A stretch of DNA of 64,000 bases from Bradyrhizobium sp. CER78 (GTDB taxonomy: Bacteria; Pseudomonadota; Alphaproteobacteria; Rhizobiales; Xanthobacteraceae), in NCBI RefSeq assembly GCF_029846235.1, contig NZ_JARVWP010000011.1, forward strand, positions 124,001 through 188,000. Direction: 5' to 3'. The notes below the pieces were generated by a model. That model had not been told where the DNA came from. It ran no database searches and saw nothing but the letters and a program-made list of their open reading frames with translations. Shown here one piece after another: positions 9,797-57,338 of the stretch (within the stretch, counting starts at the first letter, position 1; each line of letters starts with the position of its first letter). Position numbers and translations under genes: made by a program.

Positions 9797-10585
9797 TTAC
9801 GCGGCCGTCCAGCCTCCATCGACGGGTAGGTTGGTGCCGGTGACCTGCGCGGCATCGTCGCTGCACAGGAACAGCGCAAGCGAGGCAACTTGCTCGACCG
9901 TAACGAATTCTTTGGTGGGCTGCGCAGCGAGCAAGACATCATGAATCACCTCATCTCTCCTCATCCGACGTGCCTCCATCGTGTTCGGGATCTGCTTCTC
10001 CACAAGCGGCGTCCAGACGTAGCCGGGGCTGATGCAGTTGCAGGTGATCTTCGATCTGGCGAGTTCCAACGCCACCGTCTTGGTGAGACCCGCGATGCCG
10101 TGCTTGGCGGCGACGTAGGCCGACTTGAAGGGCGAAGCGACCAGCGAATGCGCCGAGGCTGTGGTGATGATGCGGCCCCAACCGCGCCTCTTCATGCCCG
10201 GCACGGCTGCACGGATGGCGTGAAATGCGGCCGACAGGTTGATCGCGATGACCGCGTCCCACTTCTCGATCGGAAACTCATCGACAGGAGAGACGTGCTG
10301 GATGCCGGCGTTGTTGACCAGGATATCGACACTGCCGAAGGTCTTCTCTCCGAGTGCGATGAGCCCAGCGATTTCGCTCGGCTTCGCCATATCCGCGGGG
10401 GAATAGATCGCCTTGACGGCGAAGTCGCGCTCGATCGCGGAGCGCTCCCTCTCGACATCGGCCGGCGCACCCATCCCGTTGAGCACGATATTGGCGCCGG
10501 CACCGGCGAACGCACGGGCACACGCAAGGCCTATGCCGCTGGTCGAGCCGGTCACAACGGCCGTTTTACCCTTCAGAATTCCCAT
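9797..10585 (-). CDS. bdhA: D-3-hydroxybutyrate dehydrogenase (SDR family)
   Basis: A 262-residue short-chain dehydrogenase that would oxidise D-3-hydroxybutyrate to acetoacetate with NAD. The cofactor motif TGSTSGIG is at residues 12-19, NNAG follows (VDILVNNAGIQHVSPVDEFP), and the catalytic Ser-Tyr-Lys set is in SAHSLVASPFKSAYVAAKHG. The sequence after it (LELARSKITCNCISPGYVWTPLVEKQI) is characteristic of 3-hydroxybutyrate dehydrogenases. The ATG at 10585 begins MGILKGKTAVV; longer frames upstream look non-coding. It is the last gene of the minus-strand ketone-body operon, 85 bases after the decarboxylase gene. Confidence 0.92.
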   Translation of the reverse strand: MGILKGKTAVVTGSTSGIGLACARAFAGAGANIVLNGMGAPADVERERSAIERDFAVKAIYSPADMAKPSEIAGLIALGEKTFGSVDILVNNAGIQHVSPVDEFPIEKWDAVIAINLSAAFHAIRAAVPGMKRRGWGRIITTASAHSLVASPFKSAYVAAKHGIAGLTKTVALELARSKITCNCISPGYVWTPLVEKQIPNTMEARRMRRDEVIHDVLLAAQPTKEFVTVEQVASLALFLCSDDAAQVTGTNLPVDGGWTAA

Positions 10586-10670: not shown

Positions 10671-11462
10671 TCAGAAGACCAGCGCTCTCTCGTCGGCCCG
10701 GAGCGAGCGTCGAGCCGGCTGTCGCAGATAGTCGTGGACCACTTTGCCGAGACCGAGCGTGAGGTCTGCACGGATGTGAACGGCGGAAACGATCTCCAGA
10801 ACCGGGAGCTCGGCAACGGGTGCCAGAGCGTGGGGCGTCAAGGCGAGAGCTGCGGGCCCGGTCCAGGCGCCTTTCAGCACGATGTCCTCGAGGTGGTATT
10901 CGACCAGCTCGCAGATCCGAGGACTGCCGTCGACGTGAGGAATGATCTTGAGCAGGAAATTCGGTTCTTTGAGAGCGGCGTTGACATGCGCCAGCTCGAC
11001 CTCGCGATGCTTGTAGCCCATCGTTCCCGTTGCGACCCGCAGCGGGCCGTAGTCCAGCGTACCGATCAGGGTATCGATCTCGGTTCGCAAGGTCGGCTGC
11101 GCGAGCTTCTTCGGAAAGCCCCAGAGCTCGCGTCCACCGGCAATGGGCCCCTCGTCATTGAGAAACATGCAATGCGTATAGCCGCCCTTGCGCCCGCGGA
11201 AAGAGACGGGGATGACCTGGCCGCTTTCCGTGTAGTCGCCAAACCCGTTGGAGTCCGGCATCCGAATGAACTCATATTTGACCAGAGCTTCGCACTCGTC
11301 GAATTCCAACGGTTCGGGCACGATTGCGCGCAGCTTTGCCGGATCGGTACGATAGGTGATGATCAGGTACTCGCGGTCGACAAAACGATAGGGTCCCGGC
11401 GAATAGGCCGGGCTGGTCAGCGGCATTGCAAAAGCCCGCTTGAGGACGTCATTCTCGCGCAT
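10671..11462 (-). CDS. adc: Acetoacetate decarboxylase
   Basis: A 263-residue enzyme of the ADC family, which converts acetoacetate to acetone and CO2 through a Schiff base on lysine. The signature ELWGFPKK (residues 112-119) carries the catalytic lysine, and upstream [21 protein letters not shown] matches the family. Length is close to clostridial Adc (about 245-250). It sits between the patatin gene (32 bases upstream) and bdhA, so the set could take hydroxybutyrate through acetoacetate to acetone. Members of the fold with other substrates exist, so substrate specificity is inferred from context. Confidence 0.92.
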
Positions 11463-11494: not shown

Positions 11495-12667
11495 CTACTC
11501 GCGGCCATCGTGCTCGAGATCGAACGTGAAGACGCCGTCCGGGCTGGTGGGACGAGCGAGCACCTCGGGATGGCGCAGCGTGCGCAGCGCATCGTGATAG
11601 CCGGCGCGCCAATGGTCCTGCATCGACAGACGGGAAAACTCGTAATCTTTGGAGTGCCCTTCGTGATTGCGCGCGCGATAGATCAGGTGGACGATGTTGT
11701 AGACATGATCGGACGAGGCCGAGCTGAGGAGTTTCACGTCCTCGTGCTCGCGAAGATCCTCTGGCAGGCGTCGCAACAGAGCGGCGAGGGCACGCTGCAG
11801 ACGATGAACGCGCTTGAACTGGTCCGTACTTGCGCGCGTACGGCTCGAATACTGAACCTCCTTCTGCCGCGTCGCGACTTCGCCCATGTTGCGCGGAACC
11901 TGGCCCCCCGCGCTCCAGAGATCGACTTGAAAGGCAAGCATATCCTGCGGGGCACCCCACTCGATCACCCACTGCAACGGTGTGTTGGAGACGAGACCGC
12001 CGTCCCAGTAATGCTCGCCTTCGATCTCGACGGCCGGAAAGCCCGGCGGCAGCGCGCCGCTCGCCATGATGTGCTCCGGCCGGATCGCATGCGTCGTGTT
12101 GTCGAAATAGACGAAATTGCCCGTCCGGACATTGACCGCCCCTGCGCTGAAGCGCGTCATTCCGGCGTTGAGACGATCGAAATCGACCAGACGCTCGAGC
12201 GTGCTCTTGAGCGCGCCGGTGTCGTAGAAGCTGGTGGCATCGCTGCTCCCGGCAGCCTGCAGCCAGGGCAGCATCGGGCGCGCGGAGAAAAAGCCACTCG
12301 CGCCGCAGGCCGCGGCGAGACCCGCGCTTATCTGGTTGGCGAGATTGCGCGTGGCGTCGCTCCGGGCCCAATCAAAAAGGGAATTGCCGGACCAATCCCA
12401 GGGACCGGTCGAGGTCACCTGAGTCCAGAAATCCCGGAGCCGGTCGACACGGGTTTCGGGTGGGTTGCCGGCGATGATGGCGGCGTTGATGGCGCCGATC
12501 GAGATGCCGGCGACCCAGTCCGGATGGATACCGGCTTCGGACAGCGCGTCGTAAACGCCTGCCTGATACGCTCCGAGCGCGCCGCCGCCTTGCAGGAGCA
12601 GGGCGATGCAGTCGAAGGGCAGCCGTCGCTGCGCGGTTGTGAACTGTGCTCGCGGTTGAAAGTTCAT
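11495..12667 (-). CDS. Patatin-like phospholipase with DUF3734-like C-terminus
   Basis: A 390-residue patatin-family hydrolase. The oxyanion loop GGGALG is at residues 27-32, the nucleophile serine at 56 in GISIG, and the partner aspartate at 222 in [11 protein letters not shown], so the Ser-Asp dyad is complete. The C-terminal part (from about residue 280, with [20 protein letters not shown]) fits the DUF3734 extension found on such proteins in Rhizobiales. It could hydrolyse membrane lipid or poly-hydroxybutyrate-related esters. It has no signal peptide, so it is probably cytoplasmic. It lies 88 bases after the PepSY gene, upstream of adc and bdhA. Confidence 0.9.
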
Positions 12668-12755: not shown

Positions 12756-13340
12756 TTACCTTCCGACCTTGGGCGGCTCGAGCGTGACCTCCTTCAGATG
12801 GTCGCCACTGGCGACGACGATCACGAAATTGAGCTTGCCGTCCTGCCTGATCAGCCCTCCAGCCAGGGCGCTGCCCGCTGCAGCTCTTTCGGCGACCTGA
12901 ACCGCATCCGCCATCTCCTGCTTGATCCATTTCAGGGCAACGACGTTGGCGAGGTCTTCGCGATCGAGCTCCTTGAGAGAAGATGCGATCTCCTTGCCCG
13001 TGATGCTGCCGGTGTTTGCATCAATGACGTTCTCCCACACATGCTCGTTCTTGATCGTGCGCACGCGGTAGACGGGCGTACCGGATGATTCGAAGCTGAT
13101 ATCCGCGGTTCTGGAGCCGTCGTGCAAATGCTCTGCGATCGTCAGGACCTGGCTGAGCGGGACGTGCGTGGTGCGGAATTGCTCGAGTGCGCGGCGGATC
13201 GCTACCTCCTCGGAGCCGCTTTGTTCCGCCACGCCGACGGGATCGCCATCCCCCGGCCTTTGGGCGGCATCGGCGAGCGCGCCCGTTGCGGCAAATGTGG
13301 CAGACCATACGATCAGGGCGAACAGGTGCTTCTTCGACAT
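12756..13340 (-). CDS. PepSY-like domain secreted protein
   Basis: A 194-residue protein with a signal peptide (FALIVWSATFAATGALADA). The middle, PLSQVLTIAEHLHDGSRTADISFE followed by VYRVRTIKNEHVWENVIDANTGSITGKE, has the alpha/beta layout and DANTG turn of PepSY domains, which bind or inhibit proteases or act as periplasmic sensors. The C-terminal part, with LIRQDGKLNFVIVVASGD, could be a second half-domain. It starts 18 bases after the preceding mini-gene and belongs to the operon controlled from 13872..13900. Confidence 0.8.
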   Translation of the reverse strand: MSKKHLFALIVWSATFAATGALADAAQRPGDGDPVGVAEQSGSEEVAIRRALEQFRTTHVPLSQVLTIAEHLHDGSRTADISFESSGTPVYRVRTIKNEHVWENVIDANTGSITGKEIASSLKELDREDLANVVALKWIKQEMADAVQVAERAAAGSALAGGLIRQDGKLNFVIVVASGDHLKEVTLEPPKVGR

Positions 13341-13358
13341 TCGGTTAGATCCCAGGGT

Positions 13359-13451
13359 TCAAAACGGCAGGTCGTTTAGTCCGCGTGCGAGGACATGAGC
13401 GCGTAGCGGCAGGGCGTCCATGACGTCGAAGACCTCGACGAAATCCAGCAT
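13359..13451 (-). CDS. Possible 30-residue mini-gene
   Basis: ATG at 13451 with GAGG seven bases upstream opens a 30-codon frame (MLDFVEVFDVMDALPLRAHV..., ending in LNDLPF). It fills the space between the 55-residue frame (ending at 13465) and the PepSY gene (starting at 13340). The composition is protein-like and its place in a tightly packed operon supports translation, but at this size it could be a chance frame. It has no membrane segment. Confidence 0.4.
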   Translation of the reverse strand: MLDFVEVFDVMDALPLRAHVLARGLNDLPF

Positions 13452-13464
13452 GTCAGGACCTCGG

Positions 13465-13632
13465 TCATGATAATCGGGCCGTGCGCGGCGCGATCTGGTC
13501 GGCTGCTTCGAGCGCAATTCCTCTGCGCACCAGCTCCGATTCGATCAGGTCGAACACGCATTCGACGGGCGCGATCCAGATACTCACCCAACAGATGATG
13601 CAGTCACGCGACAGCAGCAGCATCGGTGTCAT
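13465..13632 (-). CDS. Small hydrophobic protein, translationally coupled
   Basis: A 55-codon frame whose ATG (13632) overlaps the TGA of the preceding 68-residue gene as ATGA, a sign of translational coupling. The N-terminal half is hydrophobic with paired cysteines (CIICWVSIWIAPVECVFDL) and could be one membrane helix; the rest is amphipathic (ESELVRRGIALEAADQ). I recognise no family. Position and coupling make it a likely real gene. Confidence 0.55.
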   Translation of the reverse strand: MTPMLLLSRDCIICWVSIWIAPVECVFDLIESELVRRGIALEAADQIAPRTARLS

Positions 13633-13835
13633 GCAAGGCTTCTCCGCGCGACGCGGTTTTGCACCGGCGCCGGCTCGCGATCGGCGAGCGCATGCACCCA
13701 GGCGACTATCGAAATCGTGATACCCAGCAGTAGGCTCACGCCCACGAGCGACACGGCCACGATCAAATTGAGCGATGCGACGGCGATTCCGGGCCAGGGA
13801 TTTTCCCGCACGGGCGCCAAGAACAGGCTTGACAT
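13629..13835 (-). CDS. Small single-helix membrane protein, first gene of the operon
   Basis: A 68-residue protein with one long hydrophobic stretch (VASLNLIVAVSLVGVSLLLG, then ITISIVAWVHAL) that may form one long or two short helices, followed by a charged tail. AGGAGATGACAG immediately precedes the ATG. The leader is only about 30 bases from the predicted transcription start and the operator at 13847..13869. I do not recognise the family; as the lead gene of the patatin-adc-bdhA operon it may help target or regulate those products at the membrane. Confidence 0.65.
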   Translation of the reverse strand: MSSLFLAPVRENPWPGIAVASLNLIVAVSLVGVSLLLGITISIVAWVHALADREPAPVQNRVARRSLA

Positions 13836-13846
13836 CTGTCATCTCC

Positions 13847-13869
13847 TAAATAAACTATACCGTATATTT
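13847..13869 (-). promoter_or_regulatory. Predicted TetR operator, copy 1
   Basis: Twenty-three bases identical to the reverse complement of 16188..16210. The core TATACCGTATA (13856..13866) is a perfect inverted repeat TATAC-N-GTATA. It covers the expected transcription start of the minus-strand operon, where a bound repressor would block initiation. See 16188..16210 for the second copy. Confidence 0.78.
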
Positions 13870-13871
13870 CA

Positions 13872-13900
13872 TATACAGCGCGGATAGCGGGATGTGTCAA
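13872..13900 (-). promoter_or_regulatory. Sigma-70-type promoter of the ketone-body operon
   Basis: Read on the minus strand: TTGACA (13895..13900), a 17-base spacer, then TGTATA (13872..13877). The -35 is a perfect consensus match. The start would fall near 13865, inside the operator, with a short leader to the ATG at 13835. Confidence 0.75.
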
Positions 13901-14009
13901 GAGCAGAGATTCAAAAGCCCGTGTACGTCCTGGTTGGATGGAGAGGACCTGGGTCGCGAGACCTGGTTCGATCGGAAAGCAGATGCCTCACTTTGAGAAA
14001 GGATCCGAT

Positions 14010-14303
14010 ATGTTCAAGAACCGGCTGGTATTCGCGGTCTTGGTTTGCATTTCCATGGGCGCGGCGGCCACCCGCGCGCAGGAGGACCGCGGCACACCTG
14101 AGCAGAGGGCGGCATGCGCTCCCGATGCGTTTCGTCTGTGCGCCGGCTACATCCCTGACGCCGCGAATGTGGAAGCCTGTCTCAGGCAAAAGAAGTCGGA
14201 CCTCAGCGATGCTTGCAGAGCCGTCTTCGAGCACGCAGCGCCAACTGCTTCGGTCAGGACCATAGGATCGCAGTGGTATCGCGGCGCAAATGATGAGGAT
14301 TGA
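14010..14303 (+). CDS. Secreted cysteine-repeat protein
   Basis: A 97-residue protein with a signal peptide (VFAVLVCISMGAAATRAQ). The mature part has the pattern C-x-PDAFRLCAGYIPD ... ACLRQKKSDLSDACRAVF, with four cysteines, similar to the short cysteine-rich repeats of Rhizobiales and to GLG1-type repeats. Function is unknown. I start at ATG 14010 behind AAAGGA, which places the signal peptide at the N-terminus. The homologue at 25008 keeps the same spacing. It runs divergently from the operator/promoter at 13847..13900. Confidence 0.75.
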   Translation: MFKNRLVFAVLVCISMGAAATRAQEDRGTPEQRAACAPDAFRLCAGYIPDAANVEACLRQKKSDLSDACRAVFEHAAPTASVRTIGSQWYRGANDED

Positions 14304-14307
14304 TCAT

Positions 14308-14745
14308 ATGAACACGATATATATTCCCGCTTTCGCCGCGTTCGGCGGCTCGTCCTTCGGAGCGATCTCCACGATCGTGACCGGGTGGGTGACCCGTCGC
14401 CGCAGGGTCCGCGAACGCCATCATGCCCACGCGGTAACCAAGCGTGAAAAGCTGTATCGAAGCTTCGTTGAGGAGGCGTCCCGGCTTTATGCGGACGCGC
14501 TGACCAGCGACAAGTCAGAGATCCCGGCGCTGGTGAATTTGTATGCGCTTATCGGGCGTATGCGGATTCTGTCCGACGACGAAGTGGTCCAGGCCGCGGA
14601 GCGGGCAGGCCGGCTGATCATCGAGACCTACCTTGCACCGAACACGTCGTTCGTCGACCTGCCAGGCTTCATGGAAGAGATGGATCCGTTGCGTGAATTC
14701 GGCGAGGCATGCCGGCGTGAAATGCACGCGATTCCGTCGCGCTGA
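14308..14745 (+). CDS. Hypothetical protein with one N-terminal membrane segment
   Basis: A 145-residue protein. Residues 1-28 (IYIPAFAAFGGSSFGAISTIVTGWV) are a probable membrane anchor, followed by a basic RRRRVRERHH cluster and a helical cytoplasmic domain (EKLYRSFVEEASRLYADAL, LYALIGRMRILSDDEVVQAAERAGRLI). I chose ATG 14308 because GAGGA lies eight bases upstream; an ATG at 14290 would overlap the preceding gene. It lies between the cysteine-repeat gene (4 bases) and a TetR gene (8 bases), probably in one operon. The family is not recognised. Confidence 0.68.
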   Translation: MNTIYIPAFAAFGGSSFGAISTIVTGWVTRRRRVRERHHAHAVTKREKLYRSFVEEASRLYADALTSDKSEIPALVNLYALIGRMRILSDDEVVQAAERAGRLIIETYLAPNTSFVDLPGFMEEMDPLREFGEACRREMHAIPSR

Positions 14746-14753
14746 GGCCGGGC

Positions 14754-15428
14754 ATGCCAATGGCGCAGACTACCCGTCAGGTTGGTTCGTCATGCACTCG
14801 CGAACGAATTGTGCAGGCTGCGATCCGCTTGTACCGGGAGATCGGGTACCGGAAGACCACCGTTGCCGACGTCGCTCGCGACGCATCAATGTCCCCCGCA
14901 AATCTCTATCGGTTCTATCCCTGCCGTCGAGCGCTCGAAGAGGTCGTTGTGGCGGAACTGCTTGAGGAAGTATCCGCGGCAGCTGCAAGTGCAGCGCGAA
15001 GCGGTCGCTCGGGCCTGGAACGGTTAAATGCTGCCTTTAGGGTGGTCTCCCGGATGCATGAAGATCGGTTGGCAAACAATGTTCGATTGCACGAACTGGT
15101 GGTCGCCGCAGCACAGGAAAACTGGCCGGCCAGCCTATCCCATGCGGATCGCCTTCGCGGTGTTGTGCAGTCGGTCATCGCGGGCGGGCAGGCCGGTGGC
15201 GAATTTCGAGCAGGGAGTCCGATGGCGCTGGCCTGCTGCCTGCTGGACGCGATGGACGCTTACCTCAATCCGTCCCGTATCAAGGCGGCCGCTCTTCGGC
15301 CGGCCTTCGACGAGTTGATGAACTTTTGCGCGGGGGCGCTTAGCAACGCAGCGTTCGTTGACGCGGCGCCCTCGCAAGTGACCAGCATTCGGGCCGGTTT
15401 AGCTTACAAGCTTCCCTGTCGCGCCTAG
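14754..15428 (+). CDS. TetR family transcriptional regulator
   Basis: A 224-residue regulator. The N-terminal TetR helix-turn-helix reads RERIVQAAIRLYREIGYRKTT then VADVARDASMSPANLYRFYP, a clear match. The helical ligand-binding part is different from that of the neighbouring TetR at 15447. GAGG lies six bases before the ATG. It is the last gene of a three-gene plus-strand operon and converges with the other TetR gene 18 bases away. It could also act on nearby operators; which regulator binds the 23-bp site is not decided by sequence. Confidence 0.88.
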   Translation: MPMAQTTRQVGSSCTRERIVQAAIRLYREIGYRKTTVADVARDASMSPANLYRFYPCRRALEEVVVAELLEEVSAAAASAARSGRSGLERLNAAFRVVSRMHEDRLANNVRLHELVVAAAQENWPASLSHADRLRGVVQSVIAGGQAGGEFRAGSPMALACCLLDAMDAYLNPSRIKAAALRPAFDELMNFCAGALSNAAFVDAAPSQVTSIRAGLAYKLPCRA

Positions 15429-15446
15429 CGTTTGGCGATCGCCGGC

Positions 15447-16109
15447 TCACGGCGTCCAGTCTGCCTCGCAGGCCGCAAGGAAAAAGCCAACCCGTTCGCG
15501 CACGAAAGACGGCAGCTCGCGTCTCAGGTCCTTGGGTGTTTCCCCCACCAACGAACGAAACAGCATCGGTAACAGGATCAGATCCAGGAAGATCTGAGCG
15601 GTGGCAAGGCTTCGCTTGCCACTGAAGGGACCTTTTGAAGAGCGCGCCAGCTTCTGCGTCGCTTCATTCAGGAGTTGGGAAATGGCGTTGACGGAGCGAT
15701 CGCGTGCAGCATCGTGGACGTTGCGGCTCAACTCCGGGAAACGCTGCGCCTCTGCAATCGTGGCGCGGACCATGCCCAACGATTCTTCGATCACCTTCTC
15801 CACGACGGCGGTGCCGAGGCTCGACAGCTTGTCCTGAAGGGTGCGGCCCTCGGGCTCGAAGCCTTCGAAATCCGTCAGCCCGGTAATGGTGCGGGCCACC
15901 ACCGCCGCGAACAGTGCCTCCTTGCCGGGAAAATGGGCGTAGATGGTTGGTTTGCTCGCCGGCGCCAGCTCGGAGATGTCATCGATGCTGGCGCTACGGT
16001 AGCCCTTCTCGAGAAAGAGTTGCTGCGCTGCATCAAGGATCCGGGCCTGGACGTCACCGGCGCGGTCCTTGGGCGGTCTGCCCCGTTTCGGGGTGGTCTT
16101 CTTCGTCAT
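15447..16109 (-). CDS. TetR family regulator, probable repressor of the efflux and ketone-body operons
   Basis: A 220-residue regulator with a basic N-terminus (KKTTPKRGRPPKD) and a TetR DNA-binding domain (ARILDAAQQLFLEKGYRSAS, IDDISELAPASKPTIYAHFPGKEALF). The C-terminal domain resembles AcrR-type regulators of efflux genes, with the conserved SRNVHDAARDR stretch. ATG 16109 is preceded by GGGAG with 8-base spacing. It is transcribed away from the RND operon, with the 23-bp operator in the shared promoter region, the usual layout for autoregulation and repression of a pump. The identical operator 2.3 kb away suggests a second target. Confidence 0.88.
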   Translation of the reverse strand: MTKKTTPKRGRPPKDRAGDVQARILDAAQQLFLEKGYRSASIDDISELAPASKPTIYAHFPGKEALFAAVVARTITGLTDFEGFEPEGRTLQDKLSSLGTAVVEKVIEESLGMVRATIAEAQRFPELSRNVHDAARDRSVNAISQLLNEATQKLARSSKGPFSGKRSLATAQIFLDLILLPMLFRSLVGETPKDLRRELPSFVRERVGFFLAACEADWTP

Positions 16110-16153
16110 CCGTCGATCTCCCAATCACGACTCTGTGCGCGCGCAGACCGCAC

Positions 16154-16183
16154 TTGACACGCTCCGTGGAAAAAGGCAATAAA
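16154..16183 (+). promoter_or_regulatory. Predicted promoter of the RND efflux operon
   Basis: TTGACA (16154..16159) is a perfect -35. An A/T-rich -10 candidate AATAAA (16178..16183) follows at 18 bases, or CAATAA at 17. The spacing to the operator just downstream resembles that of the promoter at 13872..13900. Confidence 0.6.
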
Positions 16184-16187
16184 AAGA

Positions 16188-16210
16188 AAATATACGGTAT
16201 AGTTTATTTA
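16188..16210 (+). promoter_or_regulatory. Predicted TetR operator, copy 2
   Basis: Identical over 23 bases to 13847..13869 in inverted orientation, so both copies face the same way relative to the operon they precede. The core TATACGGTATA (16191..16201) is a perfect TATAC-N-GTATA inverted repeat. It lies just after the predicted -10, between the divergent TetR (start 16109) and the efflux operon. Confidence 0.78.
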
Positions 16211-16298: not shown

Positions 16299-17165
16299 GT
16301 GACTGTGTTGAGCCCGGACCCGCACCGCCCACAAGACGGCGTCCTGCTGCGCGAATTGCATCACAGGGTCGATCGAGGGATCGCCTCGGCGATCGATCTG
16401 GTCTCCGCCGCGGTTATCCGGGCCGACGGTGCGGAAGCAAAGACCGCCCTGAGCGATGTGGTCGAGCTGCTGCACGGACATGCCGCGCTGCATCGGGCGC
16501 TCGCAATGCCCCAGGGCGAAGCGCTTCATGACGCCGCGACTTACATTCGCAAACTTGGCTGCGCCCTGCGCCAGTCCCTGTTGGATCGAATGGAGATCCG
16601 GCTGACGTTCGCCACTGAATCTCTTCCCGTCCAATCAGAGCGGTGCTGGCGGCTTGGCCTGATCGTCCACGACCTGATCGTAAGCGCAGCGAAGCATGCG
16701 TATTTCGATGCGCGCGCCGGCGAGATCAAAGTCAAGCTGACGCGCATCGGCGCGGTGGTGAACTGCGTGGTGCTGGATAACGGCTCCCGGTTGGCGCGGG
16801 CAGCCCTGGCTCGTGAGCTCCAGATCAGTAGTGACCTTGCCAGGGGGCTGGGCGGACGAATTGAGCACGGCTTTGCCGCCGAGTTCACATCAGTCGTTTT
16901 CTCGTTTCTCTTGAGCGAGCGGGAGCGGCAGGCGAACTGGTCGATGGCGGCGCGCCGCATGAGGTCGCAGCGCCCGCGGAAGGCGAAGTCGTCCGGCACG
17001 CCCGGCTCGGGCTTCGGCCTCTCGGATCAGGTCGAGCGCCCGCGCGCGATCGGAGCGGATCCAAAGATGCTGCGAGCGTATCCGAATGAACCGGCCCCGC
17101 CCAGCAAGGGCTCAGACGTCTTGGGCGATCTGCTGTCCCCCTCTCACCGCATGGACGCGCTATGA
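16299..17165 (+). CDS. Degenerate histidine-kinase-like protein (HisKA_2 type)
   Basis: A 288-residue protein from GTG 16299 (CAGGAGAG upstream). Near the start, LLRELHHRVDRGIASAIDLVSAA resembles the HisKA_2 dimerisation helix with phosphoacceptor His22, but the usual asparagine after HRVK is missing. The later part imitates an ATPase domain: DLIVSAAKHAYFD in place of the N-box (the key Asn is Ser), VVLDNGS as a G1-like motif, and LARGLGGRIEH. The last 70 residues are Pro/Arg-rich and probably disordered. It probably binds or senses rather than phosphorylates. Its TGA overlaps the next ATG (ATGA), tying it to the efflux genes. Confidence 0.65.
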   Translation: MTVLSPDPHRPQDGVLLRELHHRVDRGIASAIDLVSAAVIRADGAEAKTALSDVVELLHGHAALHRALAMPQGEALHDAATYIRKLGCALRQSLLDRMEIRLTFATESLPVQSERCWRLGLIVHDLIVSAAKHAYFDARAGEIKVKLTRIGAVVNCVVLDNGSRLARAALARELQISSDLARGLGGRIEHGFAAEFTSVVFSFLLSERERQANWSMAARRMRSQRPRKAKSSGTPGSGFGLSDQVERPRAIGADPKMLRAYPNEPAPPSKGSDVLGDLLSPSHRMDAL

Positions 17166-18289
17166 AACCAGGCTGTTCAAACCACACCGTAATCGGTCGA
17201 GCGGAGCGCTTGCTTAAGCCTCTGGCGGGCTTGGCGCTCGCGCTTGCCGCAGCCGGGCTGAGCGGCTGCAATGATCGCGGCGATGCTCCGCCCGCGCGCG
17301 CCGCGTTCGTGCGCACGGAGGTCGTCCAGCTGAAGGCCCGGCAAGCCTCGATCACCCTGACCGGCGAGGTGCAGCCCCGCTTCCGCGCCGACTTGTCGTT
17401 CCGTGTCAGCGGACGTGTGATCGCGCGCTATGTCGACGTCGGGACCCACGTCAAGGCCGGCGAGGTGCTGGCCCTTCTCGACCCCGCCGAAGAACAGGCC
17501 GATGTCGATGCCGCGACCGCTGCCGTTCTCGCCGCAGAATCCCAACTGCGTGTGGCGAAGGCGACCTTTGAGCGGCAAAAGACTCTGATCGCAAGCGGCT
17601 TCACCACGCGCACGACCTATGACCAGGCGCAGGAAGGATTGCGAACCGCGGAAGGCGCGCTCGAAGCGGCAAGAGCGCAGCTCGGGACGTCAAAGGAGGC
17701 CCTTGGCTACACCGCGCTGCGAGCCGAGGCGGACGGTGTTGTTACCGCACGCAACCTGGAAGCCGGTCAGGTCGTGCAGGCTGCGCAACCGGCATTTTCG
17801 CTAGCGCAGGATGGAGAGCGGGACGCTGTATTTGAGGTCTACGAGTCCATTTTCCTCGGCAATGCCGACGACCGCAGCGTTTCGTTGGCGCTCGTCTCCG
17901 ATCCGGGCGTGACTGCAAGCGGCCACGTTCGGGAGGTTTCCCCGGCCGTTGACGCCAAGAGCTCGACCATTCGGGTGAAGGTGGCGATCAAGGACCCGCC
18001 TGCCGCAATGACGCTTGGAAGCCCCGTCGCAGGAACTGTGAAAGTGCATCCCCAGCGGCAGATCGCGTTGCCTTGGAGTGCATTGATGGCCGCGGGCACC
18101 AGGCCCGCGGTCTGGATTGTCGATCCGGCAACGCGGACAGCCTCGCTGAAGCCGGTAGCAGTCGATGGCTACGAGGCTGGAGAAGTATTGATCAAGGCGG
18201 GTCTCGAGCCCGGCGAGCGCGTCGTCGTCGACGGCGGCAAGCTTTTGAGCGTGGGCCAGCCCGTCACTTATGCAGGAGATCCCTCATGA
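17162..18289 (+). CDS. RND efflux periplasmic adaptor (lipoprotein), first of two
   Basis: A 375-residue membrane fusion protein. The lipobox LSGC gives lipid-modified Cys36. The lipoyl half FRVSGRVIARYVDVGTHVKAGEVLALLD is followed by a coiled-coil hairpin (about residues 110-180), the second lipoyl half YTALRAEADGVVTARNLEAGQVV and beta-barrel plus membrane-proximal parts. It would bridge the RND pump to an outer-membrane channel. It overlaps the upstream and downstream genes by 4 bases each. The second adaptor downstream is only distantly similar, so the pump probably uses a hetero-oligomeric adaptor ring. Confidence 0.92.
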   Translation: MKPGCSNHTVIGRAERLLKPLAGLALALAAAGLSGCNDRGDAPPARAAFVRTEVVQLKARQASITLTGEVQPRFRADLSFRVSGRVIARYVDVGTHVKAGEVLALLDPAEEQADVDAATAAVLAAESQLRVAKATFERQKTLIASGFTTRTTYDQAQEGLRTAEGALEAARAQLGTSKEALGYTALRAEADGVVTARNLEAGQVVQAAQPAFSLAQDGERDAVFEVYESIFLGNADDRSVSLALVSDPGVTASGHVREVSPAVDAKSSTIRVKVAIKDPPAAMTLGSPVAGTVKVHPQRQIALPWSALMAAGTRPAVWIVDPATRTASLKPVAVDGYEAGEVLIKAGLEPGERVVVDGGKLLSVGQPVTYAGDPS

Positions 18290-19362
18290 TGAGCCGCGCA
18301 ATAATTGTGGCGGGCCCGCTTGCATGCGCGCTTGTACTTGCTGGATGTCAGCAGGAAACAAAGGCGCCGGAGCCCGTGCGCCCGGTCCAATCGGTGCTTC
18401 TCGAAGTGGACCACGCAGACGATGCGGTCGCGGTGGGCGTTATCGAGCCGCGCTACCAAACTAATCTCGGTTTCCGCGTGCTGGGACGGCTGACAGCGCG
18501 TCCAGTCTATGTCGGTGACCTCGTGCATGAAGGACAGACGGTCGGCAACATCGACTCAACGGCCCTCGAGCTCGTGGTCCGCGCGGCCAAAGGGGAGCTT
18601 GCCAAGGCCGAGGCGCAGTTCGCGACCGTCAGAGCGACGGAGGAACGGCAGCGAACGCTCATCACCACCGACGCGACCACAAAGCAGACGCTGGATAACG
18701 CCGAGCAGGCGCGCGCCGGCGCGGAAGCGACGGTGGCGCAGGCTCAGGCAAACCTGACCAAGGCGATCGAGCAGCTCGGCTATTCGCAGATCAGGGCCGA
18801 CTTCGCCGGTGTGGTCACCGCGGTCGGGGCGGAAGTCGGCCAGGTGGTATCTCCCGGCCAAAGCGTGGTGACGGTTGCGAGACCCGATGTTCGCGAAGCC
18901 GTCGTCGATATCGGACCGGACTTTCCGCTGCCGCTGGAGATTGGCCTGCCATTCACGGTCAGCCTGCAGCTCTTGCCCGCCGTCCAGGTGCACGGCGGCA
19001 TTCGCGAGATCGCGCCGCAAGCCGATCCGGTGACGCGATTGCGGCGAGTCCGTATTGCGCTCAACAACCCGCCTGAAGGCTTCCGCCTCGGCACGACCAT
19101 CACCGCGAAACTTGACAAGGGGCAAGCCCGGATATTGCGCCTGCCCGCGTCGGCTCTGCTCGCCAAGGACGGCGCAAACTTCGTCTGGATCGTCGATCAG
19201 CCCACCAGCACGGTGTCGTTGCAAAAGGTCGATGTCGTCGTCGATCAAACCGGCGCGCGCGTCGTCGGCGGAGTTGGCCCCGGTGCGCGCGTAGTAACCG
19301 CCGGGATCCACAGCCTCAAGCAGGGACAGCAAGTCCGTATCGAACAGGATGAAAAGCCATGA
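18286..19362 (+). CDS. RND efflux periplasmic adaptor (lipoprotein), second of two
   Basis: A 358-residue adaptor. The lipobox LAGC gives Cys21. Lipoyl half GFRVLGRLTARPVYVGDLVHEGQTV, a coiled coil (residues about 85-150), lipoyl half GYSQIRADFAGVVTAVGAEVGQVV, then the barrel domain. The start overlaps the stop of the first adaptor (ATGA) and its own stop overlaps the pump start. Two consecutive adaptors before one pump recall TriA-TriB-TriC of Pseudomonas aeruginosa; which substrates are exported cannot be read from sequence. Confidence 0.92.
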   Translation: MMSRAIIVAGPLACALVLAGCQQETKAPEPVRPVQSVLLEVDHADDAVAVGVIEPRYQTNLGFRVLGRLTARPVYVGDLVHEGQTVGNIDSTALELVVRAAKGELAKAEAQFATVRATEERQRTLITTDATTKQTLDNAEQARAGAEATVAQAQANLTKAIEQLGYSQIRADFAGVVTAVGAEVGQVVSPGQSVVTVARPDVREAVVDIGPDFPLPLEIGLPFTVSLQLLPAVQVHGGIREIAPQADPVTRLRRVRIALNNPPEGFRLGTTITAKLDKGQARILRLPASALLAKDGANFVWIVDQPTSTVSLQKVDVVVDQTGARVVGGVGPGARVVTAGIHSLKQGQQVRIEQDEKP

Positions 19363-22300
19363 AGTCGTTCAATCTTTCCGACTGGGCGCTCGGCCATCGT
19401 TCGCTCGTCTGGTACTTCATGATTGCCTTCATGGCGGCGGGCCTTTTTGCCTATCTCCAGCTGGGGCGGCAGGAAGACCCCGACTTCACCATCAAGACCA
19501 TGGTGATTCAGGCGCAGTGGCCGGGCGCCTCGCCTGAAGAGATGACGCGCCAGGTCACCGACCGGATCGAGAAGAAGCTCGAGGAGCTGGAATCGCTCGA
19601 TTACACCAAGAGCGTCACTGTTGCCGGCGAGACCACCGTCTTCGTCTATCTGCGTGACACCACGAAGGCAGCCGATGTGAAGTCGACCTGGATTCGCGTC
19701 CGCAATATGATTGCGGACATCAAGGGCGAGTTTCCCCAAGGAGTGATCGGACCGGGCTTCAACGATCGCTTCGGCGACGTGTTCGGCAACATCTACGCCT
19801 TCACCAGCGACGGCTTGAGCCAGCGTCAGCTCCGTGACCGGGTCGAGGACATCCGCGCCAGGGTCTTGACCGTGCCGGATGTGGGCAAGGTCGATATTCT
19901 GGGCGCGCAGGACGAGGTCATTTATCTCGAATTCTCCACCCGCAAGATCGCGGCCCTTGGCCTCGACGTCCACGCCATCATGGCTTCTCTGCAGGGACAG
20001 AACGCGGTCGCGCCGTCCGGCGTGTTCCAGGAAGGGCCCGAGCGGATCAGCGTGCGGGTGAACGGCCAGTTCACGTCAGAGGCAAGCCTGAAGGCGATCA
20101 ACCTCCGCATCAACGACCGTTTCTTTCCGTTGACCGACGTTGCAAACATCACGCGCGGTTATGTCGATCCAGCCAAAACCCTGCTCAGATACAACGGACA
20201 GCCCGCGATCGCGCTCGCGATCGGCATGAAGTCCGGTGCCAACCTCCTGCGTTTCGGCGAGGCGCTGAAAGAGGAAATGACGAAGATCATTGCCGACCTG
20301 CCGATCGGGGTCGGCGTGCATCTCGTCGCCGATCAGCCAGTGGTGGTCGAGCACGCCGTGTCCGGCTTCACGGAGGCGTTGTTCGAGGCTGTGATCATTG
20401 TTCTCGGCATCAGCTTTCTCAGCCTGGGGATGCGCGCTGGCCTAGTCGTCGCGATTGCGATTCCGCTGGTTCTCGCCATCACCTTCGTAGTGATGGCCTA
20501 TGCCGGAATTTCGCTTCAGCGAATTTCGCTCGGCGCCTTGATCATCGCGCTCGGCCTGCTGGTCGACGACGCCATGATTGCGGTCGAGATGATGGTGGCG
20601 CGGCTTGAGATCGGCGATCCCCTCGAAAAAGCGGCGACGCATGTCTATACCTCGACCGCCTTTCCCATGCTGACCGGAACCCTGGTAACCGTTGCCGGCT
20701 TCATTCCGATCGGGCTCAATAGCAGTAATGCGGGCGAGTTCACCTTCACGCTGTTCGTGGTCATCGCCGTCTCCCTGATCGTCTCCTGGATCGTGGCAGT
20801 GCTGTTCACGCCATTGCTTGGCGTCACCATCCTGCCCGCCAAAACGAAGGGGCATCATGAGGAGAAGGGGCGCGTAGCGCAGTTGTTCGGGCGCCTCTTG
20901 CTGTTCTGTATGCATCATCGTTGGATGACGATCGGCGTTACGGTTGCAGCCTTTCTGCTGGCACTGTTCGGCATGAATTTCGTCCAGCAACAGTTCTTCC
21001 CGTCCTCGGATCGCGCTGAGCTCGTGATCGACTGGAATTTGCCGCAGAACGCCTCCATTGCCGATACTAATTCACAGATGGCGCGCTTCGAGCGCGAGCA
21101 GCTTCAGGACAATAATTCGGTCGATCATTGGTCGACCTATGTCGGTACCGGCTCGCCGCGCTTCGTCCTGTCCTTCGACGTGCAGACCGCCAACACCTGG
21201 TTCGGTCAAATGGTCGTCGTGACCAAGGGAGGCATCAAAGCGCGCGACCAAGTCAAGGCACAATTCGAGGATTACCTCAAGAAGACGTTCCCCGGCACCG
21301 ACACCTACGTCAAGCTGCTGGAGGTCGGTCCGCCGGTGGGACGCCCTGTGCAGTACCGCTTGAGTGGACCTGATATCGCGAAGGTGCGGGATCTCTCGCA
21401 GAAGCTCGCCGGGATTGTCCGCAGCAGCCCCGACTTGGGCAACGTCGTGTTCGACTGGATGGAGCCGGCGCGCGTCGTCAAGGTGGACGTTCTCCAGGAC
21501 AAGGCGCGCCAGCTCGGCGTGACTTCGGAGGACATCGCCACGACCTTGAACTCGGTACTCGAAGGCTCGCCGATTACCCAGGTGCGCGACAGCATCTATC
21601 TCGTCAACGTCACGGGACGGGCGACCGCGCCGGAACGTGCTTCCATCGACACCCTGCGCGATCTGCAATTGACGGGGCTCGGCGGTCGATCCGTGCCGCT
21701 CGGGGCGGTGGCCAATCTGCGTTACGAGCTCGAGCAGCCGACAATCTGGCGGCGCGCGCGGATTCCCACCATCACGTTGAAGGCCGGCATCGCTGGCAAC
21801 GTGCAGCCGAAGACAATCGTGGATCAGCTCGCGCCGAAGGTCGCGGAGTTCACCAAGGAACTGCCGGCGGGCTACTCGGTGAAGATCGGCGGCTCCGTCG
21901 AGGAGAGCGCCAAGAGCCAGGCGCCGATCGTCGCCGTCGTTCCGCTCATGCTGTTCGTCATGGCGACGGTGCTCATGATCCAGCTGCAGAGCTTCCATCG
22001 CTTATTCCTGGTCTTCGCGGTCGCGCCGCTCGCCGTGATCGGGGTCGTCATGGCCCTGCTGCCGAGCGGAGCGCCGCTCGGATTCGTTGCCATCCTCGGT
22101 GTGCTCGCCCTGATCGGAATTCTGGTCCGAAACTCGGTGATCCTGATCGTGCAAATTGAGGATCTGAAGAAGGAGGGGCGCCCAGCCTGGGAGGCCGTCG
22201 TGGAGGCGACCGAGCATCGCATGCGGCCGATCCTATTGACCGCGGCGGCCGCAAGTCTCGCGCTGATTCCGATCGCGCGCGAGATCTTCTGGGGACCGAT

Positions 22301-22505
22301 GGCTTACGCGATGATGGGCGGCATCATCGTCGGCACACTGCTGACGCTGTTGTTCCTGCCGGCACTCTATGTGGCCTGGTTCCGAATCCAGCCTGAACAA
22401 GGCGATGGATCGCCCCATGAACCCGAAGCGTTTGCGCATGAAACGCCGGCCGAACAGGTAGCCGCTCACGATGCGCCAGAGCCGGTGCTCGAGACGCAAA
22501 TCTAG
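19359..22505 (+). CDS. RND multidrug efflux permease
   Basis: A 1048-residue inner-membrane proton-driven pump of the AcrB superfamily. It has the N-terminal helix, two large periplasmic loops (about residues 35-330 and 560-860) and two six-helix bundles. TM4 carries LGLLVDDAMIAVEMM with the paired aspartates of the proton relay. The internal repeat and the length are typical. The short C-terminal tail is acidic (HEPEAFAHETPAEQ). It is translationally coupled to the second adaptor. No outer-membrane factor gene is adjacent, so a TolC-type channel from elsewhere must be used. Confidence 0.95.
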   Translation: MKSFNLSDWALGHRSLVWYFMIAFMAAGLFAYLQLGRQEDPDFTIKTMVIQAQWPGASPEEMTRQVTDRIEKKLEELESLDYTKSVTVAGETTVFVYLRDTTKAADVKSTWIRVRNMIADIKGEFPQGVIGPGFNDRFGDVFGNIYAFTSDGLSQRQLRDRVEDIRARVLTVPDVGKVDILGAQDEVIYLEFSTRKIAALGLDVHAIMASLQGQNAVAPSGVFQEGPERISVRVNGQFTSEASLKAINLRINDRFFPLTDVANITRGYVDPAKTLLRYNGQPAIALAIGMKSGANLLRFGEALKEEMTKIIADLPIGVGVHLVADQPVVVEHAVSGFTEALFEAVIIVLGISFLSLGMRAGLVVAIAIPLVLAITFVVMAYAGISLQRISLGALIIALGLLVDDAMIAVEMMVARLEIGDPLEKAATHVYTSTAFPMLTGTLVTVAGFIPIGLNSSNAGEFTFTLFVVIAVSLIVSWIVAVLFTPLLGVTILPAKTKGHHEEKGRVAQLFGRLLLFCMHHRWMTIGVTVAAFLLALFGMNFVQQQFFPSSDRAELVIDWNLPQNASIADTNSQMARFEREQLQDNNSVDHWSTYVGTGSPRFVLSFDVQTANTWFGQMVVVTKGGIKARDQVKAQFEDYLKKTFPGTDTYVKLLEVGPPVGRPVQYRLSGPDIAKVRDLSQKLAGIVRSSPDLGNVVFDWMEPARVVKVDVLQDKARQLGVTSEDIATTLNSVLEGSPITQVRDSIYLVNVTGRATAPERASIDTLRDLQLTGLGGRSVPLGAVANLRYELEQPTIWRRARIPTITLKAGIAGNVQPKTIVDQLAPKVAEFTKELPAGYSVKIGGSVEESAKSQAPIVAVVPLMLFVMATVLMIQLQSFHRLFLVFAVAPLAVIGVVMALLPSGAPLGFVAILGVLALIGILVRNSVILIVQIEDLKKEGRPAWEAVVEATEHRMRPILLTAAAASLALIPIAREIFWGPMAYAMMGGIIVGTLLTLLFLPALYVAWFRIQPEQGDGSPHEPEAFAHETPAEQVAAHDAPEPVLETQI

Positions 22506-23430: not shown

Positions 23431-24651
23431 TCACGCGGCAACCTTTCCCAGCCTTCGGACTGACAGGGCCTCAACGTGCCCTGCCCAGCGTTGAAGCGCC
23501 TCGCGCATCTCGCTCGCATACCGAGCGCGGTTATATACCCCGGCAACGCCGGCCCGGTGACCGCTGACATGGTTTAGGATCACTTCCACGATGTGTGGCA
23601 AGACGCCTAGCTGGTCGGCCATCACCGTGGACGCTGATCTGCGAAGATCGTGAGCGGTCCAATGGGGTAGGGGTTCGCCCAGGGCTTCCGCAATGCGCGC
23701 ATCAAGCGCCGACTTCGACTTTGACCAGCCGGAGAACCCGCGCTGCCGGTCACCGCTGCGACGGGGGCCGTCCCCAAAGAGGAAGTCTCGGCCATCTCGG
23801 CGAGGCGGGAGTAGGGCCAAGGCGGCGGGAACCAATGGCAGCACGTGCTCGCGATGGTTCTTGGTCCGGGTGGCTGGCAGCGTCCACAGTCCCGAACTGG
23901 TATCAAGTTCGGGCCATTGCATACTACCTACTTCATCACGGCGCTGGGCTGTGAGTAGCAACAGACGCACGATGCGTCCGTAATCGTCGTCGCCACAGGA
24001 CTGCCAAATGGCTGAGAGCTCCGTTTCGGTGAGGACCCGCTCCCGACTTCCCGGCTGCGCGGGCCGGTTTGTGCCGAGAACCGGGTTCGCGGCAATGTCG
24101 AGGCCCTCGCGTATTGCCCAGTTGAACATTGAGGACAGCGCTGTCCGGGCGCGGGCCGCTGAGACCGCTCCATGAGCTGAGACCATGTCAGCAACGCGAG
24201 CCGAGATGTGACGACGGGTGAGCTGGAACACCGAGATCGGATGCAGGGGTTTCCAGCTGACCAACAAGTAGCGTTCGACTTCCGAATAGGTCCGGGGCTT
24301 CAGCCTTTCTTTGGCGTTCCGGAGATATTGATCCGCGATTACCGAAAGCGTGTCGGCCGCCTGCAGGAGCGCCTTGGCCTTCTCGTCCGCGGGGTCTTTG
24401 CCGTTGGCAACCAGGCCCAAGAGCCGCTTGGCTTCCTTGCGTGCCAGCTCGGGTGTCCACGGCGCGCCGTGAGGACCGATCGTGACGAAGCGCTGCCGAC
24501 CAAATACGCGGTACTTGAGGACGTAGGTCGCCTGATCGCGTTGGCGCCGAACGCCAAAGCCCCGTACCGCTTCGCGATGGTCCCCATCCCAAATAGTCTC
24601 GCCGGGCTTGAGTGCTTGCACTGCTCGGATCGTAATACTCGAAACTGCCAT
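23431..24651 (-). CDS. Tyrosine recombinase / P4-type integrase
   Basis: A 406-residue integrase with an N-terminal arm-binding domain of DUF4102 type (ALKPGETIWDGDHREAVRGFGVRR, YRVFGRQRFVTIGPHG), a core-binding domain (residues 100-200) and a catalytic domain with all active-site residues: Arg237 in TAQRRDE, Lys264 in TRTKNHREH, His334 and Arg337 in HDLRRS, His361 in LNH, and Tyr373 in GVYNR. It is therefore probably active. It faces away from the tRNA fragment 150 bases upstream, the usual position at the end of an integrated island. Confidence 0.93.
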   Translation of the reverse strand: MAVSSITIRAVQALKPGETIWDGDHREAVRGFGVRRQRDQATYVLKYRVFGRQRFVTIGPHGAPWTPELARKEAKRLLGLVANGKDPADEKAKALLQAADTLSVIADQYLRNAKERLKPRTYSEVERYLLVSWKPLHPISVFQLTRRHISARVADMVSAHGAVSAARARTALSSMFNWAIREGLDIAANPVLGTNRPAQPGSRERVLTETELSAIWQSCGDDDYGRIVRLLLLTAQRRDEVGSMQWPELDTSSGLWTLPATRTKNHREHVLPLVPAALALLPPRRDGRDFLFGDGPRRSGDRQRGFSGWSKSKSALDARIAEALGEPLPHWTAHDLRRSASTVMADQLGVLPHIVEVILNHVSGHRAGVAGVYNRARYASEMREALQRWAGHVEALSVRRLGKVAA

Positions 24652-26812: not shown

Positions 26813-26912
26813 GTCATTCCGGGGCTCGCGAAGCGAGAACCCGGAATCTCGAGATTCCCCGATGCGCAATTGCGCATCTGAGGTTCGATGCTGCGCATCG
26901 CCCCGGAATGAC
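26813..26912. repeat. Dispersed multi-hairpin repeat, family A, copy 1
   Basis: A 100-bp element with perfect 12-bp terminal inverted repeats GTCATTCCGGGG / CCCCGGAATGAC. Between them are consecutive palindromes: CTCGC-GAA-GCGAG, GGAATCTCGAGATTCC, GATGCGCAATTGCGCATC and GATGCTGCGCATC. A second copy lies at 47021..47123. Confidence 0.85.
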
Positions 26913-27827: not shown

Positions 27828-28292
27828 ATGACCACGCTGACCTTCGAAGACTTCAAGCCCGGCCGTTTCGGCACGTTCGGCCCTCGCCATGTTTCACGCG
27901 AGGAAATCCTCGCCTTTGCCGCCGAATTCGACCCGCAGCCGATGCATCTCGACGAGGAGGCGGCGAAGAACTCCATGCTCCGCGGCCTGTCGGGCTCCGG
28001 CTGGCATCTCGGCTCGCTGATGATGCGGATGCTGTTCGATGGCTTCATCGGCCGCACCGCCTCGCTCGGCTCGCCCGGGGTCAACGAGATGCGCTGGGTG
28101 GCGCCGCTGCGTCCGGGCGACGATTTGACGCTGGACGTCGACGTGGTCGAGGCGCGCGTCTCCAAGAGCCGGCCGGAGACCGGCATCGTCACGTTCAAAG
28201 GCACGATCCGCAACGCGCGCGGCGAGATGCTGTGCGAGATGGAGTCGCCGATCATCGTCAGCCGCCGGGACGGCGCGGGTAAGCGAGCATGA
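27828..28292 (+). CDS. MaoC family dehydratase (R-specific enoyl-CoA hydratase-like)
   Basis: A 154-residue hot-dog-fold protein. The MaoC signature with the catalytic Asp-His is in FAAEFDPQPMHLDEEAAKN, followed by GLSGSGWHLGSLMMRM and a substrate-loop RWVAPLRPGDDLTLDVDV. It would hydrate (R)-specific enoyl-CoA or a related thioester. A second MaoC gene follows 55 bases on, with a repeat between them whose GCATGA provides this gene's TGA stop. The two may form a heterodimer or act in a fatty-acid or polyester route. Confidence 0.88.
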   Translation: MTTLTFEDFKPGRFGTFGPRHVSREEILAFAAEFDPQPMHLDEEAAKNSMLRGLSGSGWHLGSLMMRMLFDGFIGRTASLGSPGVNEMRWVAPLRPGDDLTLDVDVVEARVSKSRPETGIVTFKGTIRNARGEMLCEMESPIIVSRRDGAGKRA

Positions 28293-28333
28293 TCCGGAAA
28301 AGTGCGAAGCGGTTTTCCGCAAAGATCATGCTC
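28287..28333. repeat. Dispersed palindromic repeat, family B (GCATGATCCGG type), copy 1
   Basis: Begins GCATGATCCGGAAAA and ends in GATCATGC, with inner stem CGGAAAA/TTTTCCG. It overlaps the last codons of the first MaoC gene, whose TGA lies within the repeat. Other copies: 41632..41682, 55803..55849, 57281..57329. Confidence 0.85.
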
Positions 28334-28347
28334 AGGACATAGACCGT

Positions 28348-41621: not shown

Positions 41622-41631
41622 TTCTTTGTTT

Positions 41632-41682
41632 GATCATGATCTTTTCGGAAAACCGCTTCGCACTTTTCCGGATCATGCTCTA
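41632..41682. repeat. Dispersed palindromic repeat, family B, copy 2
   Basis: Reverse orientation to the copy at 28287. It ends exactly at the stop codon of the monooxygenase gene (CTA at 41680..41682 on the plus strand), so the TAG and the repeat start are joined. Confidence 0.85.
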
Positions 41683-47020: not shown

Positions 47021-47123
47021 GTCATTCCGGGATGGTGCGTAAGCACCAGACCCGGAATCTCGAGATTCCCCGGTGCGCAATTGCGCACCTGTGGTTCGAT
47101 GCTGCGCATCGCCCCGGAATGAC
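47021..47123. repeat. Dispersed multi-hairpin repeat, family A, copy 2
   Basis: Ends GTCATTCCGGG and CCCCGGAATGAC. Inner hairpins are GGTGC-GTAA-GCACC, GGAATCTCGAGATTCC and GGTGCGCAATTGCGCACC. Compared with 26813..26912, both sides of two stems are changed together, so pairing is kept. Confidence 0.85.
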
Positions 47124-55742: not shown

Positions 55743-55802
55743 GAGCGATCCCTGGATGATCCCGCGTGATGCGATGTCTGCGCATCGCCTCGCAACGTTC
55801 TA

Positions 55803-55849
55803 GAGCATGATCCGGAAAAGTGTGAAGCGGTTTTCCGAAGAGATCATGC
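55803..55849. repeat. Dispersed palindromic repeat, family B, copy 3
   Basis: GAGCATGATCCGGAAAAGTG at left, ending in GATCATGC. It lies between the PAS gene and the GNAT-type gene, both on the minus strand. Unlike the other three copies it is not joined to a stop codon. Confidence 0.85.
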
Positions 55850-55899
55850 CCAAAAGTGGCGTCGCTATCTCGCGGGATCAATTGCGGCGCGGTCGCGGC

Positions 55900-57329: not shown

Positions 57330-57338
57330 AAAAAGATC

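Follow-up and report, generated by a model that had tools for sequence, protein, structure and literature searches.

A conserved inverted repeat as probable operator of a TetR-family switch common to an efflux pump and a minus-strand unit with storage-compound genes in Bradyrhizobium

TetR repressors of the AcrR/TtgR/IfeR type are encoded divergently from a resistance-nodulation-division (RND) pump, act on an operator laid over the promoter and respond to plant-type ligands. Two genistein-responsive loci of Bradyrhizobium japonicum (diazoefficiens) come closest to the one discussed here, as described by Takeshima et al.: the TetR-RND system FrrA/FreCAB (blr4322, bll4319-bll4321) and the genistein-inducible locus BjG30 of strain USDA110 (bll7017-bll7033; 7,729,680-7,748,456) (Takeshima et al. 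2013, PMC4070704). In that study, 12 of the 17 BjG30 genes were up 24.6- to 213.9-fold 30 min after genistein, both tetR genes among them, while bll7017, blr7026, blr7031, bll7032 and bll7033 stayed outside that rise. The order is given as pump (bll7019-bll7021), unknown gene (bll7022), tetR genes (blr7023 and bll7024), hypothetical gene (bll7025), blr7026, blr7027, adc (blr7028) and bdh (blr7029), the last two being described as genes of polyhydroxybutyrate (PHB) metabolism (PMC4070704). Here, we analyse a locus of this kind in a stretch of 64,000 nucleotides from Bradyrhizobium sp. CER78 (NCBI RefSeq assembly GCF_029846235.1, contig NZ_JARVWP010000011.1, positions 124,001 to 188,000), referred to as the window, and in particular a 23-bp repeat that it carries in two inverted copies.

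The window has the gene order and strands of BjG30 in mirror image, which places the locus with BjG30 (PMC4070704). The minus strand holds a hydrophobic mini-gene, a PepSY-domain gene and patatin-adc-bdhA, and the plus strand an RND pump preceded by a gene with a weak match to histidine-kinase-type ATPases (HATPase); in between lie two tetR genes, TetR1 and TetR2, and the hypothetical genes h13938 and h14290 (Table 1). TetR1 has its ortholog at the blr7023 position, being 92% identical to G157:C1:7738475-7739134, and genome G157 (stretch L269) is apparently USDA110 itself, going by tetR1 coordinates that fall within the BjG30 range. We propose that a TetR-family repressor, the blr7023 ortholog encoded at 15447-16109, uses the repeat as its operator, and put the probability of this switch as a whole at about 0.87. 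The operator is very probably common to the pump and the minus-strand unit, with one of the intervening tetR genes encoding the protein that reads it, and the genes for storage-compound breakdown probably stand under the same switch as the pump.

A repeat search of the window returned 13847-13869 and 16188-16210 as an inverted pair 2318 nt apart. Read directly, the two are complementary at 23/23 positions, as stated in the original prediction, whose further claim that a match of this length would hardly arise by chance was likewise borne out: an exact 23-nt inverted repeat appeared in 0/60 first-order Markov windows and an exact 20-nt one in 2/60. The core TATACNGTATA with at most one mismatch occurs at two places in the window, both of them repeat copies, against 0.03 expected. 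When the whole 7.97-Mb genome was searched with a 20-letter operator pattern at up to three mismatches, six rows were obtained, namely both window sites on both strands plus two rows with three mismatches; the reversed control gave three forward rows and one reverse row. Only the window pair thus stands above the control level, leaving the genome with two full sites, 2.3 kb apart. Operator 1 lies 21 bp before the 68-aa mini-gene, inside the divergent gap to the plus-strand open reading frame (ORF) at 13938, and operator 2 lies between TetR1, 82 bp away, and the HATPase-pump operon. Since each site sits between two divergent genes, as many as four transcription units rather than the two operons originally named could be affected: the pump operon with its HATPase gene, the minus-strand unit from the mini-genes onward, TetR1 itself and the h13938-h14290-TetR2 group.

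A third exact copy of TATACNGTATA in the genome, at C39:73078, was set aside: its centre is T, and the 20-letter pattern does not match it at up to three mismatches. This copy (L122 1501-1511, G000:C39:73078) reads TATACTGTATA and stands just 5′ of a 296-aa minus-strand ORF.

It had also been proposed to look for the repeat near these genes in related genomes. TetR1 was searched for in 146 and then in 265 Bradyrhizobium genomes, 71 of which gave a hit at E 1e-80 or better, and a search of 248 genomes of the family added two from another genus (77 and 78% identity). From 60 locus stretches fetched first and 33 fetched later, those with TetR1 at 65% identity or more were counted as orthologous loci (n=77); the mini-gene counts refer to the 70 loci with a mini-gene match, L273 falling outside them by a coverage rule despite having the site. 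An operator matrix was built from 68 sites (55 distinct 31-mers; threshold score 12), with L227 and L232-L238 excluded for want of A-rich flanks. The resulting consensus is an extended near-palindromic dyad, TAAACTATACSGTATAGTTTA. In the first 60 loci and the window, the matrix found 126 sites scoring at least 12, of which 68 were its own training sites, and in the 33 stretches outside training it found 75; the reversed sequences gave 0 in either set. For the HATPase gene, identities and distances in the first 60 loci are unreliable, the reference having been out of frame.

A site close to TetR1 was present in 77/77 loci, 72-87 bp before the TetR1 start in 74 of them and 121-126 bp before it in three, and a site before the mini-gene in 70/70, at a distance of 21 bp in 68. 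At the genome level, the operator pattern with one mismatch allowed was found in 71/71 genomes with TetR1 and 6/194 without, the reversed pattern in 0/265. The bare TATACNGTATA is a poor marker by comparison, occurring in 50/146 genomes with a reversed control that also hits many; among nine stretches with an exact site and no TetR1 locus, L231 alone has operator-like flanks. These genomes show plainly that the sites exist, are conserved and are linked to TetR1, and a palindrome that lies at a promoter, adjoins a tetR gene and is conserved together with it bears the marks of a TetR-family operator. NodC (TIGR04242) was matched in 135/265 genomes, in 49/71 with TetR1 versus 86/194 of the others; as 22/71 TetR1 genomes are without nodC, the regulon is not confined to nodC genomes. 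The window's own genome gave no NodC match at E 1e-80 and has both operators intact.

Several stretches show variations on this arrangement. In L296 (G210; 842 and 9515), a TetR1 ortholog (75%) is accompanied by a different RND pump about 4 kb away (42% identical to that of the window), and an operator precedes the fusion-protein gene of that pump, which it may serve there. A second TetR1 copy (75%) beside PepSY occurs in L215 (G103; 16751-17410) and L218 (G125; 2274-2933), preceded by a weak site in L218 (score 22) and by none scoring at least 12 in L215. Operator-like sites outside the core genes of TetR1 genomes (L231 9935, L191 18908, L211 15492) may mark further members of the regulon.

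The position of the sites relative to promoter elements is equally regular. In 74/77 pump-side sequences, TTGACA stands exactly 31 nt 5′ of the core; before the mini-gene, the core is preceded in 51/70 loci by an exact TTGACA, 28 nt away in 42, which is followed by a well conserved TATATGAA. Operators before patatin, found in some relatives, have TTGACA 15 nt from the core in 10/28 cases, so that the operator covers the -10 position, and no exact TTGACA in 14/28. Fixed distances from TTGACA are the placement expected of a repressor site. The mini-gene starts with ATGTCAA (complement TTGACAT), whose distance from the core is constant in 68/70 loci, so that a plus-strand TTGACA (13829-13834) overlaps its start codon. 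Together with TAAACT in operator 1, the complement of ATGTCAA could form a divergent promoter towards h13938, the first gene of the plus-strand group behind that operator; a conserved protein start could explain the constant offset instead. This pair (13829-13834/13851-13856) was the sole pick of a promoter scan and, as a single match, is no better than chance.

Taken together, the arrangement suggests a simple switch, in which a TetR1 dimer would sit on TAAACTATACSGTATAGTTTA just downstream of the -10 element and around the predicted start, blocking polymerase. One copy of the operator would shut the tetR1/HATPase-RND-pump region and the other the mini-gene/h13938 region. The dimer would leave the DNA on meeting a plant-type ligand, which in USDA110 would be a 5-hydroxyflavonoid (genistein, for example), and its release would switch on together the pump, the two tetR genes and the operon that runs on the minus strand as far as patatin-adc-bdhA. 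Binding, repression, release by a ligand and read-through from 13840 to patatin-adc-bdhA are predictions from sequence in this scheme.

Two tetR genes lie between the sites, and the earlier suggestion that they are involved partly holds: a TetR encoded there very probably reads the operator, though TetR2 is not needed for the sites to be present. In 9/77 loci (L190, L195, L208, L211, L226, L275, L278, L297 and L298), no trace of TetR2 was found between TetR1 and h14290, the place in the locus to which this search was confined, and the TetR1-proximal sites of these loci score 46 to 63. Because the sites are kept where TetR2 is gone from its place, TetR1 is the likely repressor, and the gene at 15447-16109 is the most likely regulator of the repeat. 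The helix-turn-helix (HTH) of TetR1 is also better conserved than that of TetR2 (0.96, with 0.84 for the rest of the protein, versus 0.82), its residues 49-58 being invariant in 78 sequences. That TetR2 (14754-15428), alone or with TetR1, binds the repeat would fit a gene placed between both sites and present in most loci, but given its absence from nine loci and its less conserved HTH we consider this improbable. Still further from the evidence is the idea that the repeat belongs to some dispersed repeat or mobile element and is no repressor site at all. The window does contain other dispersed repeats, which exceed the 23-bp pair in length, so that the pair is not its sole long inverted repeat; against this stand a genome-wide total of only two full copies, the near-fixed distances to gene starts and the tight association with one TetR, which reduce the likelihood of such an origin to almost nothing.

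A more serious question is how far control by TetR1 extends along the minus strand. The patatin gene was found in 57/77 loci, having moved across the pump in 18 and being still divergent in 39. Relocated patatin-adc-bdhA comes with its own operator in 17/18 loci by script and in the 18th by inspection (L288, scripted as site-less because its patatin is split into two matches; the site lies 78 bp before patatin); in the TetR1 tree, the relocated state occupies one large group and a separate supported pair, L192/L276. Where patatin is still divergent, its own operator is present in 0/26 loci with a PepSY-patatin gap below 110 bp and in 8/10 with a longer gap, the exceptions being L211, with a site 408 bp before patatin and thus beyond the 220-bp limit, and L280, with none. 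It is also present in the three loci without PepSY, weakly so in L226 (22.1). In most cases, patatin-adc-bdhA therefore either sits tightly behind the mini-gene/PepSY unit or is provided with its own operator. The PepSY-patatin gap of the window measures 88 bp, with a best matrix score of -31, and neither here nor in the five nearest loci (L270-L274) is there a patatin-proximal operator; the near relatives L183 and L185 retain theirs. Control of patatin-adc-bdhA by the 13847 site would consequently need about 1.2 kb of read-through from 13840. Thus, of the link originally drawn between efflux and the ketone-body operon, the operator common to pump and minus-strand unit stands, while control of patatin-adc-bdhA itself hinges on this read-through. 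No terminator-like site was found on the minus strand from 13840 to 12667, and one transcript running from operator 1 through patatin-adc-bdhA is plausible here. Alternatively, the sites are TetR1 operators, and operator 1 of this genome controls only the mini-genes and h13938-h14290-TetR2, patatin-adc-bdhA having left the regulon. The missing patatin-proximal operator speaks for such a loss, as does USDA110, where blr7026 was listed as uninduced despite an operator before the mini-gene upstream of it (PMC4070704). Transcripts from the mini-gene operator may accordingly stop early, leaving patatin-adc-bdhA uncontrolled in the window. The lack of a terminator-like site argues the other way, as does the short mini-gene-PepSY stretch (about 290 bp, versus 1040 in L269); the 0/26 count fits a common transcript and would also fit lost control. 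On balance, we regard loss from the regulon as a real but less probable outcome.

Besides the silence of blr7026 and a possible early stop, other observations weigh against the proposed TetR1 switch. A TTGACA-type promoter had been predicted before each copy, and the succession of CTTGACA, copy and gene start is indeed there. However, the -10 hexamers of both promoters are weak, judged by eye (TGTATA and CAATAA), and a generic promoter scan found neither the mini-gene nor the pump promoter (1 found, 1.1 expected in shuffles). Six genomes (G113, G162, G168, G219, G221 and G248) carry the one-mismatch pattern although the TetR1 search gave no hit there at E 1e-80, and the genomes are related, so that the counts given above are not independent and kinship inflates them. 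The invariant segment APASKPTIYA recurs in three out of seven TetR1 paralogs compared (L229, L230 and L240; 46-61% identity), and two of the three lack an adjacent operator-like site of the main type; the recognition helix alone is hence no proof of specificity. Finally, one in-frame stop was flagged in four TetR1 matches, among the translated stretches only in L209, where it lies next to the end.

Table 1. Genes, candidate operators and promoter-like elements of the locus (positions in the window).
Feature	Position	Strand	Basis and remarks
BdhA, 3-hydroxybutyrate dehydrogenase	9797..10585	-	TIGR01963 over cut-off; by synteny blr7029
Acetoacetate decarboxylase (adc)	10671..11462	-	PF06314, NF002614 over cut-off; by synteny blr7028
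Patatin-like phospholipase with DUF3734	11495..12667	-	PF01734, PF12536; by synteny blr7027
PepSY-domain protein	12756..13340	-	PF03413
68-aa hydrophobic mini-gene, first minus-strand gene behind operator 1	13629..13835	-	start-codon context conserved; no Pfam family
Possible -35 TTGACA towards h13938	13829..13834	+	promoter scan; TAAACT 13851-13856 inside operator 1
Operator 1 (candidate)	13847..13869	-	core TATACGGTATA 13866-13856; matrix score 53.2, itself a training site
-35-like TTGACA, mini-gene promoter	13895..13900	-	sequence; TGTATA 13877-13872 after 17 nt
h13938, small cysteine-containing ORF	13938..14303	+	no Pfam at E 0.001; same position in relatives
h14290, conserved hypothetical	14290..14745	+	no Pfam at E 0.001; by synteny probably bll7025; same position in relatives
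TetR2 (TetR_N and TetR_C_27)	14754..15428	+	domain search; by synteny bll7024
TetR1 (TetR_N and AefR-like C-terminal domain)	15447..16109	-	PF00440, PF14246; by synteny blr7023
-35-like TTGACA, pump promoter	16154..16159	+	sequence; weak -10 CAATAA 16177-16182
Operator 2 (candidate)	16188..16210	+	core TATACGGTATA 16191-16201; matrix score 59.8, itself a training site
Weak histidine-kinase-type ATPase match, first gene before pump	16299..17165	+	PF13581, E 1.5e-4, below family cut-off; by synteny bll7022
RND pump membrane fusion protein 1	17162..18289	+	PF16576, PF13437
RND pump membrane fusion protein 2	18286..19362	+	PF16576, PF13437
RND pump permease, AcrB/AcrD/AcrF family	19359..22505	+	PF00873

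Among solved structures, TetR1 finds only distant TetR relatives, the best being 6g87 (E 1.2e-15). Between the 68-aa mini-gene and PepSY, the minus strand holds more tiny ORFs (13341-13640), and L269 has an extra 179-aa ORF there. A phage-integrase-family gene (23431-24651) follows shortly behind the pump operon, and no tRNA genes were found in the window. Elsewhere, the window carries four copies of a dispersed repeat of 50-59 nt (GAGCATGATCCGGAAAAGTGCGAAGCGGTTTTCCG...) in both orientations (28282-28337, 41626-41684, 55800-55855 and 57277-57332) and a 74-nt direct repeat with 96% identity (26839-26912 and 47050-47123).

For USDA110, the joint induction of pump and PHB/acetone genes by genistein is published but mechanistically open, and the present analysis recasts it as a regulon that can be tested and whose operator is defined. 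Of the two TetR proteins, it singles out the likely repressor, and in the apparent USDA110 genome it directs attention to a third operator immediately ahead of the induced patatin-adc-bdh genes. It also indicates that rearrangements within the genus have mostly left efflux and this metabolic module under a common operator, also in a strain that lacks a nodC match. Because patatin-adc-bdhA retains its own operator copy after moving across the pump, one may speculate that the operator marks a conserved unit deliberately coupling xenobiotic efflux with the breakdown of PHB and ketone bodies to acetone, a reading that we consider rather unlikely. If it were true, proton-consuming decarboxylation of acetoacetate, an idea already raised in the BjG30 report (PMC4070704), or a role of patatin in membrane lipids would make up for what pumping costs, in Bradyrhizobium without nodC as well.

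How does the locus relate to known systems? Compared with the AcrR/TtgR/IfeR type, TetR1 reaches the cut-off of no NCBIfam TetR model, and a second, metabolic operon has the same operator as the pump. Han et al. 2020 (MPMI 33:1411) are said to describe BdtR, a TetR-like protein regulating genistein efflux in B. diazoefficiens, which we take to be blr7023; the study is cited in PMC10884283 and PMC9069715, and its title and subject agree with TetR1 here. The literature searched gave no operator for TetR1 and no PHB genes carrying one. The co-induction is already published, and the operator is new relative to the literature searched; the BdtR study may report part of it. FrrA/FreCAB resembles the locus in being a flavonoid-responsive TetR adjoining an RND pump; yet its gene numbers mark another locus, the sections drawn on here mention no PHB genes with it (PMC4070704), and the window was not assigned to it, its gene content being that of bll7019-blr7029. 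Within the BjG30 type, the window differs from L269 in two respects, the missing third, patatin-proximal operator and a stretch between mini-genes and PepSY that is about 750 bp shorter, and its genome lacks a NodC match. In G157, operators lie at about 7,738,383, 7,740,708 and 7,742,614, that is, between tetR1 and HATPase-pump, between h13938 and mini-gene, and between PepSY and patatin. These three can account for the induction of bll7018-bll7025 and blr7027-blr7030, and, with blr7026 being either PepSY or the 179-aa ORF before it, the operator in front of patatin would explain why blr7027-7029 rise without blr7026.

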